Positions 7,785-56,970 of a stretch of DNA of 64,000 nucleotides are shown here, one piece after another (positions within the stretch are counted from its first letter, which is position 1; each line of letters begins with the position of its first letter). The notes below the pieces were generated by a model. The model worked only from the letters and a program-made list of their open reading frames with translations. It ran no database searches and was not told the origin of the DNA. The stretch is from Pseudobdellovibrionaceae bacterium (GTDB lineage Bacteria; Bdellovibrionota; Bdellovibrionia; Bdellovibrionales; UBA1609). The position numbers were made by a program, and so were the translations under genes. The stretch is from the NCBI GenBank assembly GCA_023954155.1, contig JAMLIO010000006.1, positions 1 to 64,000 of the forward strand, written 5' to 3'.

Positions 7785-8873
7785 TTAGGCTTTCACCATA
7801 GTATCCACAATAGCTTGCGTAGCTCCAGACTTAAAGAAATCTAGCATGTTTTTTTGCATTTCGGCATTTTGTGACACACTTCGGTTGAGATATTGGCGCA
7901 AAAACTCAGAAAGGCGTTCTTCGTTAAAATCACTCTCAAGGATCATATCTGCGGCCTTCTTCTCCCAAAGAGTCTCGGCGTTCTTACGCTGATGATCATC
8001 TGAAGCTCTAGGGAAGGGCACAAACAAGCAATGGGCTCCAAGAGCTGACAGCTCCGCAATCGCTCCTGCTCCAGAGCGACTTAAAATCAAATCGGCCTGA
8101 AGATAGTAGTCTACAATGGGATCTAAAAAAGGCAGAATCCTTAAATTCTGGGGCCAAGTTTTGCCTTCAAAATCAGCATAGTTTTTGGCTCCTGTCTGTA
8201 AGGTGAACTCTATCTCAGGGTACTGGCTGCTGACTTCAGGAATCACTTTATTAAAAACCGCAGCTCCTTGGCTCCCCCCAAAGACTAAAACTTTAAGAGG
8301 CCGAGAAGACGCGGCAGGTGGGCTGACAGAGTTTTTTTTGTTTTGGTGCAGCTCTTCAAACTCTTTTCGGACGGGATAGCCCAAACACTTGGTCTTATGA
8401 GGAGGAAAAAACTTTTGGCTCACCTCAAACACCACAAAACAATGCTTCACGAATTTTGCTAAAATCTTGTTGGTGATTCCTGGCTCCACATTGGCTTCCC
8501 AAATGGCCGTTTTGATTCTAAGCAGACTGGCCACAAGCACTAAGGGCCCTGAAGCATAACCTCCCACACCTAAGACAAAAGAGGGTCGAAACTTTAATAT
8601 GATCCATAGGGCCTGAGCAAAAACCACGGGCATCAACAATAGAGTTTTCAGCTGTTTGACTCGCCCCACACTGGAGTGGAGCTGACCCACAGCAAGCATG
8701 TGCAACTTGTAACCGTGCTTTGGAATGATGTTCTTTTCTAGCCCCCGACGGCTCCCGACAAATTCAATACGACTTTGTGGAAATTGGTCCTCGATACGTT
8801 TGGCAATGGCCAAGGCAGGGTAAATATGTCCCCCCGTGCCTCCGCCCGCCAATAAAACTTTTATGGCTTTCAC
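7785..8873 (-). CDS. murG: MurG, lipid II-forming N-acetylglucosaminyltransferase
   Basis: GT28 glycosyltransferase that adds GlcNAc to lipid I at the inner leaflet of the inner membrane. The N-terminal G-loop LLAGGGTGGHIYPALAIA (7-24) is diagnostic. The second G-loop VFGGSQGAAVFN is near 197, and the UDP-GlcNAc region LSRSGAGAIAELSALG is near 265. The start is GTG. A proline/serine-rich stretch near 170-180 (VSPPAASSRP) lies at the inter-domain junction and looks like a lineage-specific linker. It sits between ftsW and murC, as in most dcw clusters. Confidence 0.96.
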   Translation of the reverse strand: MKAIKVLLAGGGTGGHIYPALAIAKRIEDQFPQSRIEFVGSRRGLEKNIIPKHGYKLHMLAVGQLHSSVGRVKQLKTLLLMPVVFAQALWIILKFRPSFVLGVGGYASGPLVLVASLLRIKTAIWEANVEPGITNKILAKFVKHCFVVFEVSQKFFPPHKTKCLGYPVRKEFEELHQNKKNSVSPPAASSRPLKVLVFGGSQGAAVFNKVIPEVSSQYPEIEFTLQTGAKNYADFEGKTWPQNLRILPFLDPIVDYYLQADLILSRSGAGAIAELSALGAHCLFVPFPRASDDHQRKNAETLWEKKAADMILESDFNEERLSEFLRQYLNRSVSQNAEMQKNMLDFFKSGATQAIVDTMVKA

Positions 8874-8897
8874 TGGTGTTGTCCTATGTGTGAGCAG

Positions 8898-10013
8898 TTA
8901 CTCTTTCTTACAACTTAAATTAAGTACTATTCCAAAAAGAATGCAAGTCCCTAAGAGCGAACTGCCTCCATAACTCATAAATGGCATCGTCAGTCCTTTT
9001 GTGGGAATCAGTCCTAAAACGACTGCGGCATTAAAAAAAACAGAGTACGCAAATAAACTCATAAGACCAAAACCAAGAATCTTGCGCTGCAAATCCGTCT
9101 GGCTGAGCACCACTTGCAGTCCCTTGAAAATCAAAGTTCCAATCAGAGCCATGATTGTCATAAAACCCACAAATCCCCACTCTTCCCCTAGTACAGCCAA
9201 AGTGAAATCCGTATGGGCTTCTGGCAAGAAGTAAAGCTTACCCTGCCCCTCACCCAAACCTCTTCCAAACCAGCCCCCCGATCTGAAACTTAAAAGACTT
9301 TGAATGATTTGAAACCCTGCTCCTTTAGGATCGCTCCATGGATCTAAAAAGGATTGCAGTCTTTTGAGTCGATAAGGTTCGGCATAGACTAAAGCCACAG
9401 CCGTAGCCCCTAACACCCCAGTTGCCGTAATGACAGGCCAAATGGGTTTAAAAAAACAAAAGAATAAAATCAAAAGCACCCAGCTTAAAAGCACAAAAGA
9501 ACCAAAATCAGGCTGTAATAAAAATAATCCAAATGGAGCAGCTAACATTCCCAGCCTCACCAGATTGGCTTCTGTCCATAACCTTTCATCTTGAATTTGT
9601 ACGAGCCATTTACTGACAGCAAAAAGAGCAAAGATCTTCACCATTTCTGAGGGTTCAAACCTAAACCCAAAGGGCAATTGCAACCACCTGTGTGCGCCTC
9701 CTGCCTGAACACCCACATGGGGCACAAGAGTTAAAGCCAGTGCCAGCAGACTGACAAAAAATCCCACATAGCCTAAACGCAAAAGTGTTTGGGTTTTAAG
9801 TGCGAGAATAGAAAACAGAGCCACCAAACCGACGACTGTAAATAACGCCTGCTTCTTGAGATAAAAAAGACCGTCGCTGTATTTATCAATCGCTAAGACA
9901 TAACTCGAAGTGTAGACCTGAATCAGTCCTAAACCTAACAAGCACATGACGATCCACAAGATCGTGCGATCGGCTTCCGAAATTCTTTCTGGTATCGACT
10001 TTAAAAATCCCAT
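8898..10013 (-). CDS. ftsW: FtsW, SEDS-family septal peptidoglycan polymerase
   Basis: Polytopic SEDS glycosyltransferase (about ten hydrophobic helices) that polymerises lipid II with FtsI at the septum. Family motifs include QPDFGS (about 171-176), HTDFTLAVLGEEWGF (about 265-279) and the C-terminal FMSYGGSSL (about 347-355). The Asp in HTDF and the preceding loops form the active cavity in this family. Its place in the dcw cluster beside murG favours FtsW over RodA. It is separated from murD by a plus-strand gene, so it probably has its own promoter in the 222-base gap upstream. Confidence 0.94.
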   Translation of the reverse strand: MGFLKSIPERISEADRTILWIVMCLLGLGLIQVYTSSYVLAIDKYSDGLFYLKKQALFTVVGLVALFSILALKTQTLLRLGYVGFFVSLLALALTLVPHVGVQAGGAHRWLQLPFGFRFEPSEMVKIFALFAVSKWLVQIQDERLWTEANLVRLGMLAAPFGLFLLQPDFGSFVLLSWVLLILFFCFFKPIWPVITATGVLGATAVALVYAEPYRLKRLQSFLDPWSDPKGAGFQIIQSLLSFRSGGWFGRGLGEGQGKLYFLPEAHTDFTLAVLGEEWGFVGFMTIMALIGTLIFKGLQVVLSQTDLQRKILGFGLMSLFAYSVFFNAAVVLGLIPTKGLTMPFMSYGGSSLLGTCILFGIVLNLSCKKE

Positions 10014-19662: not shown

Positions 19663-20244
19663 TTAATCAAAGCTGACTTTTACAGGTTCTTTTGCCTTAG
19701 GGTCTTCGACTTTTAAAAATTCAAATTCTTTAAACGAAAACATTCCTGCGAAAATATTATTAGGAAATACCTGGATAGATGTATTGTAGCTCATGACCGA
19801 ATCATTGTAGGCTTGTCTTGAGAAAGAGACTTTGTTTTCTGTAGAGGTCAGTTCTTCCATTAACCCCTTCATGGTCTCATTGGCTTTAAGCTCTGGATAG
19901 TTTTCCACGATCAACAGCATACGACTCATCTGGGACATCAGTTGATTTTCTGCTTGTTGCAACTCTTTCACCGCTTCTGTATTTGCTGGATCAGAGTTCA
20001 CTTTCTTTTGCGCCCCCACAGCCATATTTCTGGCTTGCACCACGGCCTCAAAAGTTTCTCTTTCGTGGGACATGAACTTTTTAGCGGTTTCCACTAAATT
20101 TGGAATCAATTCAAAACGACGCGTGAGCTGCACATCAATTTGCGACAGGGCATTTTTCACGGCATTCTTTAAACGCACCAACTTATTATAAATTGTCGCC
20201 GCCATGATGGCGACAGCAGCCACTACCAAACCAAAAACCAACAT
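19663..20244 (-). CDS. LemA family protein
   Basis: An N-terminal membrane helix (about 2-18) is followed by a long helical periplasmic or cytoplasmic domain with the LemA signatures NALSQIDVQLTRRFELIPNLV (about 36-56) and a late YNTSIQVFPNNIFA (about 152-165). Function in the family is poorly defined; it often partners an M48 protease, as here. I chose the ATG at 20244 because GAGGAG sits 5 bases before it. The in-frame GTG at 20250 would overlap that ribosome site. Together with the M48 gene it forms a two-gene insertion in the dcw cluster between ftsI and murE. Confidence 0.9.
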   Translation of the reverse strand: MLVFGLVVAAVAIMAATIYNKLVRLKNAVKNALSQIDVQLTRRFELIPNLVETAKKFMSHERETFEAVVQARNMAVGAQKKVNSDPANTEAVKELQQAENQLMSQMSRMLLIVENYPELKANETMKGLMEELTSTENKVSFSRQAYNDSVMSYNTSIQVFPNNIFAGMFSFKEFEFLKVEDPKAKEPVKVSFD

Positions 20245-20337
20245 AGTCACTCCTCGTTGCTAAAAATTTAATCCCAGTCTAACTGATCCTGATGGGGTTC
20301 GCATTAGATTATGTGGGGGCTCGACTTTTTGACGGGA

Positions 20338-20575
20338 CTCGCTCTTTCTAGGCTAAGATTCTAATTACTCTCTCGAAACGACCCAGACGATTGCGGGTGC
20401 GAAGCGTCTTCGGCTTTCGTCATAAGTTTTGAACTGAAATTAAAATTGAGAAACCCTTTGGGCTCCCTCAATTTTAATTTCAGTTCAAAACTTATGACGC
20501 AAGTCGGATACGCATCGCTCGCCTCGGAGGGTCGCTTCGAGAGAGTAATTAGAATTTTAGCCTAGAAAGAACGAG
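20338..20575 (-). repeat. giant two-stage hairpin element D, between ftsI and lemA
   Basis: The outer arms 20338-20384 and 20529-20575 pair over 47 bases with about three mismatches. The inner arms 20418-20450 and 20467-20499 pair perfectly over 33 bases around a 16-base loop. Between them are two GC-rich core strands, 20385-20417 and 20500-20528, which pair only imperfectly. Read on the minus strand, the second core contains AAGCCGAAGACGCTTCGCACC. This resembles the right core of elements A-C (AAGCCGAACTCGCATTTCGACC). It starts about 34 bases after the ftsI stop in the ftsI sense and fills most of the 365-base gap to lemA. Confidence 0.75.
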
Positions 20576-20609
20576 GCCCTAGAGTTGGAGCGAGAAAATA
20601 AAGTGTGTA

Positions 20610-22526
20610 TTAAAGGGCGGAGAGGGTGATTTTTACTTTGTTGCCTTTTTTGAATTCTTTGCCGTTTATAAAATCAACGTCGCGTACGACGCCTTGGCCG
20701 CGGATGTCGAAGTCGACTTCGCTTTGGCGTAAGATGTTGAGAGCTTCGCGCAGGGTTAGGCCTTTTAGACTATGGGGGGATGGCTCTTGTGGAGTCTTGC
20801 TGGCCAATTCTTGTTCGCAGCTTAAGTCTTTACATTCAAATAAGTTCTCTTCTTGAATGACTTCTGGAGATACACCTTCTTTGGATAAAGCAAATCGAGC
20901 CACTTTAGAAAATACGGGAGCCGCCACCTTAGAACCGTAGTGATCCTTGGTGGGTTCGTCCACTCCGATGTAGATGACAAACTTGGGTTTACCCGCAGGG
21001 ACCATGCCCACAAAACTGCTAAAATATTTATCTTTATGATAACCACCATTTACCAAATCCACTTTGTGTGCGGTTCCTGTTTTGCCTGCCACTAAATATC
21101 CATTCACAGAGGCGGCTTTACCTGAACCGTGGTCTTGCACTACAGATGTGAGCATCATTCTGACTTTCTTAGCTGTGCTTTCAGTCATCACTCGTTTTTC
21201 TTGGCGTTTGATCTTTACGTCCAATCCCGTAGGATCAATCATGCGATCCACAAGATGAGGCTGTTTCCAAATTCCATTATTTGCAACTGCCGCGTAAGCT
21301 GCTGCCACTTGTATAGGGCTTGCGGTAAAGCCATGACCAAAAGATGCTGAAATGTTCATGTGCTCAGGCCAAGTCTTGCTATAGAAGAGCCCCGTGCTTT
21401 CTCCAGGAAAATCAATTTCGGTCTTTTGACCAAAGCCCACTTTTTTATAAAAATCTCTCAGCGTATTTTTAGAAAGCCCTTGTGCTAACTGTGTGAAGAC
21501 CACATTGGAAGACACAGCTAGCCCTTGAGTCAATGTCATGGTTTCACAATCTTTTTTGGAACTGTCTTTGATTGTACGTTTGCCCACTTTGATTTTTCCA
21601 TCAAGGCAAGCAAATGCAGAGTTAGGAGAATAGGCTTGATTCTCTAAAGCCGCAGCCACCGCAAAAGGTTTGATCACACTTCCCTGCTCCATAGATTCTT
21701 GGAATAGACTGTTGATTCTCACTTGAGGTTTTACGTTACGCGCATTGTTCAGATCATAAGAGGGCCATACGCCTGCCGCCCTGATTCCTCCTGTTTCTAC
21801 ATCTAAAATCAAGCCGATGGCTTTTTTTGCACCCTGTTCTTCATAAACTTTTTTAAGTTCCATCTCTAAATAATGTTGAAATTCGCTGTCTGCCGTTAAG
21901 ATTAAATCCTTACCTTCTGGGGGTTGAGTGTATCTTTCTGGTTCCATAAATAAAGGACGACCTTTAGCATCTTTTGACACTTGCAAGACCACATCCTTAC
22001 CTTCTAAGTATTCATTATAGGCGTATTCAAGCCCTTCAAGACCTTTTCCTTCAGCACCCACAAATCCTATGGTTTGTGACAGACCGTTTTGCTCAGGATA
22101 TCTACGGTGACTTTCTCCGACAAAGTACAATCCTTTAATGCCATAAGATTCAATTTCTTTTTTTAGCTCCATAGGGAGTCGTCTTTTTAACCACACAAAT
22201 CGGGTCTTTTTGCGCATACGTTTTTCTAAAACCGTAGCGTTCACACCCAAATGCTTTGCAATTTTACGAGCTGCATATCTAGGACTGTTTACAAACTGGG
22301 GGTCAGCAAACAACGAGTAGGTCGGAGTGATCATTGCCAGTTCTTTTTCTTTGCGGTCGTAAATACTACCTCTACGAGCCTGCACAGTGACGGTTTTAAA
22401 GAATTGAGTTTCTTTGTAAGCATCGAGTCTTTTGTTGGGCATCAACTGCACTCGTCCACCTTGTCCAAGAATCAGACAAAACAGAGTGAGTTTAAGAAGA
22501 CAAAAAAGACTCAAAAAATACTTCAT
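20610..22526 (-). CDS. ftsI: FtsI/PBP3-type septal transpeptidase with PASTA domain
   Basis: Class B penicillin-binding protein that cross-links septal peptidoglycan. It has an N-terminal membrane helix (about 5-21), the pedestal motif RRGSIYDRKEKELA (about 51-64), the catalytic SVIK tetrad near residue 280 (MEQGSVIKPF), SSN near 342 and KTGT near 481. A single C-terminal PASTA domain (about 570-638, LKGLTLREALNILRQ) is present, unlike in E. coli FtsI. The SxxK context EQGSVIKP differs from the usual EPGSTFKP but keeps both catalytic residues. It follows ftsL by 20 bases. Confidence 0.95.
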   Translation of the reverse strand: MKYFLSLFCLLKLTLFCLILGQGGRVQLMPNKRLDAYKETQFFKTVTVQARRGSIYDRKEKELAMITPTYSLFADPQFVNSPRYAARKIAKHLGVNATVLEKRMRKKTRFVWLKRRLPMELKKEIESYGIKGLYFVGESHRRYPEQNGLSQTIGFVGAEGKGLEGLEYAYNEYLEGKDVVLQVSKDAKGRPLFMEPERYTQPPEGKDLILTADSEFQHYLEMELKKVYEEQGAKKAIGLILDVETGGIRAAGVWPSYDLNNARNVKPQVRINSLFQESMEQGSVIKPFAVAAALENQAYSPNSAFACLDGKIKVGKRTIKDSSKKDCETMTLTQGLAVSSNVVFTQLAQGLSKNTLRDFYKKVGFGQKTEIDFPGESTGLFYSKTWPEHMNISASFGHGFTASPIQVAAAYAAVANNGIWKQPHLVDRMIDPTGLDVKIKRQEKRVMTESTAKKVRMMLTSVVQDHGSGKAASVNGYLVAGKTGTAHKVDLVNGGYHKDKYFSSFVGMVPAGKPKFVIYIGVDEPTKDHYGSKVAAPVFSKVARFALSKEGVSPEVIQEENLFECKDLSCEQELASKTPQEPSPHSLKGLTLREALNILRQSEVDFDIRGQGVVRDVDFINGKEFKKGNKVKITLSAL

Positions 22527-49877: not shown

Positions 49878-50096
49878 GGCTGACTCCTCTTTGACTTGAG
49901 GTTAGATTTTAGATTTTTGAATAGATCTAGTTTTTTAATATATATACTCAAAATGCTCAGACAGTGACGTTTGGCATGATTTTGCCCGACAAAATCATGC
50001 CAAGCCGAACTCGCATTTCGACCATATATATTAAAAAAAAAACTAGGATCTATTCAAAAATTCAAATCTAACCTCAAGCCAAAGAGAGTTGCGCCA
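49878..50096 (+). repeat. long hairpin element, copy A
   Basis: It starts 19 bases after the stop codon at 49858. The outer arms (about 49878-49944 and 50025-50096) pair almost throughout, e.g. TTGAGGTTAGATTT with AAATCTAACCTCAA. Inside are a left core at 49945-49972 (TACTCAAAATGCTCAGACAG onward), an inner stem GGCATGATTTTG/CAAAATCATGCC (49973-49984 and 49990-50001) and a right core at 50002-50024 (AAGCCGAACTCGCATTTCG onward). The cores pair only imperfectly and are identical to those of copy C, whereas the arms are unrelated to those of the other copies. Confidence 0.85.
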
Positions 50097-50765: not shown

Positions 50766-50937
50766 AATTCAATTGGTGGGATTGGTTTTATTTTAGGTTT
50801 TTTGGATATGTATGGTCGAAATGCGAGTTCGACGGCATTATTTGCGAACGCAAAATCATGCCAAACTCACTGTCTGAGCATTTTGAGTATACATATCCAA
50901 AAACTTAAATATAAAACCCAATCCCACCCCAATGAGG
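50766..50937 (-). repeat. long hairpin element, copy B (inverted relative to A)
   Basis: It lies just after the stop codon at 50940 of the minus-strand gene and is oriented with it. The outer arms (about 50766-50812 and 50890-50937) pair, e.g. GGATATGTAT with ATACATATCC and GGTGGGATTGG with CCAATCCCACC. Right core: 50813-50833; inner hairpin: 50834-50862; left core: 50863-50889, each matching copies A and C with a few changes. With copy A it brackets the decayed gene as an inverted pair. Confidence 0.85.
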
Positions 50938-56799: not shown

Positions 56800-56970
56800 C
56801 CACCCACAAGAGTTAGGTTAGGTTGGAATATTTTTGAATATGCGTACTCAAAATGCTCAGACAGTGACGTTTGGCATAGCTTTGCATGCGCAAAGCTATG
56901 CCAAGCCGAACTCGCATTTCGACCACGCATATTCAAAAATATTCCAACCTAACCTAACTCTTGTGGGTGG
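56800..56970 (+). repeat. long hairpin element, copy C
   Basis: The outer arms 56800-56845 and 56925-56970 are a perfect 46-bp inverted repeat. The left core is at 56845-56872, and the inner stem GGCATAGCTTTGC/GCAAAGCTATGCC lies at 56873-56885 and 56890-56902. The right core is at 56903-56925. The cores are identical to copy A. The inner stem differs from A but stays complementary on both sides, and the outer arms are unrelated to A. It sits in the 555-base divergent gap 56622-57176, which otherwise holds only the A/T hairpin, terminator-like and sigma-54 sites listed here. Confidence 0.88.

Follow-up and report, generated by a model that had tools for sequence, protein, structure and literature searches.

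The window analysed here, 64,000 nucleotides of a contig from a Pseudobdellovibrionaceae bacterium (JAMLIO010000006.1, positions 1 to 64,000), contains a long foldback, called D below, between a gene for an ftsI-type penicillin-binding protein and a LemA-family gene. Its parts and its neighbours are the following:

20334-20579, minus strand: hairpin element D, whole, delimited by inverted-repeat search and folding; the core is on the minus strand, in the same direction as ftsI, and the element is one of the D-type copies
20536-20579, minus strand: outer arm of D next to ftsI, 44 nt under the extension rule applied to all copies; 3 of the columns aligned with its partner do not match
20334-20377, minus strand: outer arm of D towards the LemA gene, an inverted copy of 20536-20579
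20503-20527, minus strand: conserved 5' half of the D core, CGAGGCGAGCGATGCGTATCCGAC on the minus strand, kept in all D copies and in genomes G022, G025 and G055
20393-20414, minus strand: conserved 3' half of the D core, GCCGAAGACGCTTCGCACCCGC on the minus strand
20418-20450, no strand assigned: one strand of the perfect 33-bp inner stem, evolving in mirror with its partner between copies
20467-20499, no strand assigned: the other strand of that stem, pairing with 20418-20450
20610-22526, minus strand: ftsI-type penicillin-binding protein (Transpeptidase, PBP_dimer, PASTA), context; its stop codon precedes D
19663-20250, minus strand: LemA-family gene, context, located after D

A sequence-only reading of the window had pointed to a foldback downstream of ftsI with a perfect 33-bp inner stem, and both lie there. 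Folded as RNA, D reaches -175.9 kcal/mol, against a mean of -83.4 (sd 4.3) for 100 dinucleotide shuffles, none of which was as good (z = -21.8). The outer inverted repeat pairs 20334-20384 with 20529-20579 (51 nt, 92% complementary) and a second, inner one pairs 20399-20450 with 20467-20518 (52 nt, 90%), the 33-bp perfect stem being found within the latter by direct reading. Only 30 nt separate the ftsI stop codon from D, which has the orientation of the gene. No Rfam family was found in the window at gathering score; a TwoAYGGAY hit (E 0.05) and miRNA precursors below threshold were judged to be chance or generic hairpin matches.

D is not a solitary structure. The genome to which the window belongs (2.44 Mb in 15 contigs) holds at least 70 dispersed copies of such elements, each about 90-350 nt in size with copy-specific arms, which fall into three core families: A, comprising three hairpins that the earlier reading had labelled A, B and C, as well as D and E. 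The reading had suggested looking for D-type copies elsewhere, and BLAST with D retrieved about two dozen in the genome, some 20 of them in addition to D itself, while the core of hairpin C retrieved about 40 A-type copies. Our catalogue lists 36 A and 24 D copies, including one pattern-matched D entry (C2:55157) that has no arms and is probably spurious. Copies of family A have about 81 bp in common, delimited by an AC/CC mismatch that is itself conserved; the A-core motifs AAAATRCTCARACA and GAACTCG can be followed as far as genome G005, of the window's own family. The three A-type copies in the window are:

49887-50086, plus strand: A-type copy (hairpin A), with its own arms
50784-50918, minus strand: A-type copy (hairpin B)
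56800-56970, plus strand: A-type copy (hairpin C), between divergent genes and thus an exception in placement

Long palindromes in this genome depend on a core: in 459 kb that were sampled, all palindromes with at least 40 paired bases contain a core of A, D or E. The third family was in fact recognised because a single palindrome in this sample appeared to have no core, i.e. neither that of A nor that of D; the E core occurs at 13 places in the genome, with perfect arms of up to 92 bp. That D and the A-type hairpins follow one two-stage plan was borne out, whereas the proposed kinship of their cores was not. A covariance model of the D core matched none of 21 A-type loci and no E core, the A-core model gave a best E of 0.24 on D loci, and the GCCGAA..CGC motif present in both is too short to establish homology. 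The three families therefore have a common architecture, and homology of their cores has no statistical support in the tests made.

Several details of distribution may be mentioned here. Contigs 2, 7, 9, 10 and 13 each have an A-type copy in or near their first 320 bases, which implies that the assembly breaks at hairpins and that the true copy number is probably higher. Two E copies lie 0.9 kb apart on contig 9 (L119 and L121, at 55662 and 56558), and in one of them the core is separated from the outer arm by a C-rich insertion, so that the arm is interrupted. Pairs of oppositely oriented copies a few hundred bases apart are frequent (L245, L247 and L248 in G007, L186 in G025, and contigs 2 and 5), and resemble BIMEs or the two ends of something. 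At L106:3217-3284 (contig 4, about 33,220) there is a small palindrome rich in repeats, TCATGAGTAGTTTAAAGTTGACTTTAAACTACTCATGA, that falls outside families A, D and E.

The two arms of a copy resemble each other far more than they resemble the arms of any other copy. Across 65 armed copies of the three families there are 3269 Watson-Crick pairs, 45 mismatches and 20 gap columns. Outside the A-type core the arms are mostly 30-100 bp long, each copy having its own, and at successive distances from the core the two arms of one copy are 95-99% identical, falling to 90% at the far end of the longest A arms, four in number. Between copies, identity over the first 16 nt is 0.63 in family A (0.56 when shuffled) and 0.55 in E (0.46), and beyond 16 nt it is 0.48 in A (0.47), 0.53 in D (0.50) and 0.50 in E (0.47). 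Overall, arms agree with their own partner at 0.95-0.99 and with those of other copies at 0.45-0.63, as homogenisation by template switching predicts. The stronger statement that arms are wholly unrelated between copies had to be given up, in view of the weak similarity near the core and of homologous arms in genome G134. Arm composition close to the core is family-specific, so that part of the inner arm is inherited, which counts against the explanation that we favour below. Three A-type copies (L043, L045 and L046) have in common a core variant with two internal mismatches, while their arms are unrelated and perfect or nearly so; that the core mismatches survive while the arms were remade favours arm-making at insertion in this family.

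In some copies the arms contain the ends of host genes. The left arm of the E copy by which the third family was recognised (contig 4, 92339-92566) includes the last codons of an OppC/DppC permease: homology to OppC (8z21) continues through GDGLRDAFDPK, and the arm starts at AFDPKMKK-stop. The right arm of this copy is the inverse of the left one and abuts the stop codon of a convergent gene. Similarly, homology of SerA to 3k5p continues through RFL and the arm encodes RFLASEELGSKFI-stop, and in an M23 peptidase, located on the opposite side of its core, VDPKNY is still covered by the homology to 3slu, the arm encoding PKNYILD-stop. The genes of an ABC exporter and of a ferredoxin-like protein (both named by eye from sequence) end in arms in the same manner. 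Since a palindrome cannot create conserved protein ends, one arm in the OppC, SerA and M23 copies must be native and the other its inverted copy, and the native arm can be on either side of the core.

This bears on the observation that A, B and D all stand just after a gene's stop codon and in that gene's orientation. Clustering at gene ends is general: among the 73 arm ends that face a stop codon, 17 reach 1-41 nt into the coding sequence and about 30 are found 0-17 nt past the stop. A fixed orientation, on the other hand, does not hold, because arms take up the gene end on either side. In terms of gene context, 17 copies are convergent, 32 co-directional and 5 divergent, with 11 more outside this classification; divergent placement thus accounts for 5 of 54 classified copies, compared with about a third of intergenic bases in a control contig. 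One E-copy arm (L124, contig 5, about 8,600-8,900) starts a few nucleotides after a tRNA-like sequence ending in CCA, as judged by eye. Family A arms are often T-rich close to the core, and in G055 three copies stand against an intrinsic terminator, with the T-tract within the arm and the terminator hairpin outside (again by eye). Another locus of G055 (L256:2989-3087) has a perfect 48-bp palindrome that has grown outward from an ordinary terminator hairpin, GGAGGCTCTCAGCCTCC, and is free of A, D and E cores, so that growth of an arm may not require a core.

When arms became alike can be approached through the D family, where about ten copies carry an AT-rich stem inside the core, between the conserved asymmetric halves. 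The two strands of this stem are identical within nearly every copy, while its sequence and length vary between copies (TTTTGGATTGAAATTAGATTTGAG, TTTTGGATTAAGATTAAG, AAGTTTTGAACTGAAATTAAAATTGAG), and the asymmetric positions that flank it remain asymmetric. Such mirrored divergence favours copying at a later time, after insertion. Two genomes of another genus, G133 and G134, have arms that are recognisably homologous between copies (57-61% identity, 50% when shuffled), and yet the two arms of each copy agree at 97-98%. The types of mismatch differ as well. In the window's genome there are 16 G.T and 16 A.C mismatches, and wobble amounts to about 0.5% of pairs, so wobble is not favoured and no RNA-type preference for it can be seen. 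In contrast, mismatches on the core strand in G133 and G134 (L204-L231) number 16 G.T and 1 A.C, regardless of the direction of the neighbouring gene, which suggests either that a core-strand RNA is selected there or that copying or mutation is strand-biased; this bias also overturned our provisional view that there is no RNA-level signal at all. The sequence-only reading had held that so exact a foldback should be lost unless it is recent or selected. This pair of options omits the one that fits best, namely that arms are recopied from each other, as the mirrored divergence and length changes of the inner stem and the equal numbers of G.T and A.C mismatches in this genome indicate.

Of the 141 genomes of the order, 11, from 10 genera, were matched by the D-core covariance model; G134 had 22 matches and G133 had 8, while their congeners G018 and G031 had none. 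Comparison of G133 and G134 flanks with part of G031 in search of empty sites found them too divergent. The copies inspected in G025, G055, G022, G007, G037, G004 and G017 have long arms that are mostly perfect and copy-unique, and the E core was also found in G011, with arms that are shorter and aged, some of them common to several copies. Elements resembling the A type lie beside D-type ones in G134 and G133 (L206:989-1093, L213:1676-1796 and L226:886-1006); their presence side by side in another genus implies that the families travel or persist together. The exact core string had no match among GTDB genomes, and a gapped A-core pattern searched in 84,980 GTDB species matched four places in one Bdellovibrionaceae UBA1609 relative; four further matches, in unrelated organisms, were judged to be chance.

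As for the host background, SbcCD cleaves hairpins and restricts palindromes in E. coli. With the single model used (TIGR00619), SbcD was not found in the window's genome or in G005, and it was above cut-off in 3 of 59 relatives, compared with 13 of 14 control genomes. With no SbcD-type palindrome nuclease detected in the host, loss of palindromes should be less likely than in E. coli; as the absence is order-wide, it would be a permissive condition rather than the specific cause. The Y1/RAYT transposase (PF01797) is absent from the genome, where 10 of 14 control genomes were positive, and the only RVT_1 protein is the reverse transcriptase of a type VI retron with its HTH partner (L112:1020-2307; contig 2, about 213,500-214,800), for which we found no link to the hairpin elements. 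Searches of the genome for Y1 transposases and reverse transcriptases thus identified no mobilising enzyme for the cores.

Taken together, the sequence patterns make it probable that these elements are hairpin cores, presumably mobile, with arms that are produced, and later renewed, by self-templated synthesis (by foldback or template switching) that enters host DNA. What passes from copy to copy would be a core, about 70-160 nt long, in which asymmetric, non-pairing positions are conserved, and arms beyond about 16 nt from the core would not be inherited. When the core becomes single-stranded during replication or repair, the strand could fold back at it, a paired base would serve as primer, and DNA polymerase would use one flank as the template for the other. 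A perfect inverted arm would be made or repaired in this way, and synthesis could continue outward into host DNA and take in the final codons of a gene. Such copying probably recurs after insertion as well as occurring at insertion, and arm-making at insertion and later recopying may both take place. A more specific version can be put forward only tentatively: that this is a class of elements inheriting the core alone, with the second arm regenerated from the target by foldback-primed synthesis at each insertion, and with at least three unrelated cores across Bdellovibrionales. If so, each insertion leaves an inverted, rather than a direct, target duplication.

One may also consider that the arms were made once and never rewritten, i.e. 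that the core transposes as a single strand whose 3' end folds back and primes on the flank, yielding flank, core and inverted flank. Closely similar cores with arms that are unrelated past 16 nt, the L043/L045/L046 variant with its unrelated near-perfect arms, and gene-end copies that abut neighbouring stop codons would all be expected under such a scheme. Nevertheless we regard it as unlikely, since the inner stem of D, which is within the core, diverges in mirror where the surrounding asymmetric parts do not, since arms in G133 and G134 are homologous between copies and still mirrored, and since the coreless 48-bp palindrome of G055 sits on an ordinary terminator hairpin. Less likely still is selection at the RNA level for a functional 3' hairpin (a terminator, a protector of mRNA ends or an RNA motif) with pairing kept by compensatory mutation. 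Placement just past stop codons, conserved internal-loop sequences in the cores and the 16:1 ratio in G133 and G134 agree with it; it is difficult to reconcile with equal G.T and A.C counts and scarce wobble in the window's genome, with length changes that are mirrored, with inverted copies of coding sequence in arms, with conserved cores joined to nearly unrelated arms, and with the result that nothing in the window reaches the gathering score of an Rfam family.

Two alternatives remain. Ordinary miniature transposons could have entered the loops of pre-existing palindromes such as terminators, leaving the flanks uncopied, as the three G055 copies against an intrinsic terminator and the many arms starting 0-17 nt past a stop codon might suggest. 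This is very improbable, for perfect palindromes of 60-200 bp are otherwise absent from the sampled DNA, and the coding ends found in arms have no reason to be palindromic. The elements could also be foldback chimeras produced by amplification or assembly: some amplification methods are known to generate inverted chimeras, and several contigs do start at or near A-type copies. An artefact should hardly keep to conserved cores and gene ends, recur in 11 separately assembled genomes or include aged, mismatched examples, and we give this explanation the least credence of all.

Recopying of arms therefore remains our preferred reading, and it has several consequences. Bacterial genomes are believed to lose long perfect palindromes quickly, whereas here there are many, nucleated by cores, in an order that apparently has no SbcD-type nuclease. 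As copies are of different ages, foldback or template-switch copying becomes measurable with respect to strand, reach, stop point and the rate of arm relative to core, and the genome can be viewed as a natural record of self-templated DNA copying. It would also provide a route by which gene ends get duplicated or overwritten. Perfect covarying stems can arise with no RNA-level selection, a caution against taking covariation alone as proof of RNA function.

We found no description of these elements in the open-licence literature. The copying mechanism itself is already known; its coupling to scattered families of hairpins that take in the ends of genes seems to be new. Template switching has been documented as both maker and repairer of perfect stems (PMC8794818, PMC8604942), and quasipalindrome homogenisation of this kind resembles our case in that one arm templates the other, stems are perfect, multi-base changes are mirrored and a stem can be extended in one event. 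The known cases, however, are isolated short repeats, whereas here there are long arms, dispersed conserved cores, tens of copies and host gene ends. In yeast that lacks the Mre11 nuclease, a homologue of SbcD, the predominant rearrangement is the inverted duplication; in sae2 mutants the central repeat of such duplications, originally imperfect, had become a perfect palindrome by correction (PMC10622511). Both situations have in common that a small inverted repeat primes synthesis by folding back, that the palindrome is made perfect by correction, and that SbcD/Mre11 is missing in the background, but the yeast events are chromosome-scale and follow breaks, while those described here involve 30-100 bp, are fixed in a bacterial genome and occur at conserved cores.

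Mitochondrial genes of Nematomorpha likewise contain many long perfect inverted repeats with imperfect ones almost absent, for which template switching or repeat conversion was proposed and a parasitic character discussed (PMC6649704); those repeats sit inside genes, and no conserved mobile core appears to be described for them. REP/REPIN sequences with their RAYTs (PMC3116915, PMC3733652) are also dispersed intergenic hairpins in many copies close to gene ends, but REPs are palindromes of 20-40 bp with sequence in common, whereas the elements reported here measure about 90-350 nt, have copy-specific arms and are not accompanied by a Y1 (RAYT-type) transposase. MITEs, finally, are similarly small, non-coding, dispersed and equipped with inverted repeats, yet their terminal repeats are common to all copies, whereas the outer arms of our elements are near shuffled identity in the window's genome and partly shared in G133/G134 and G011.
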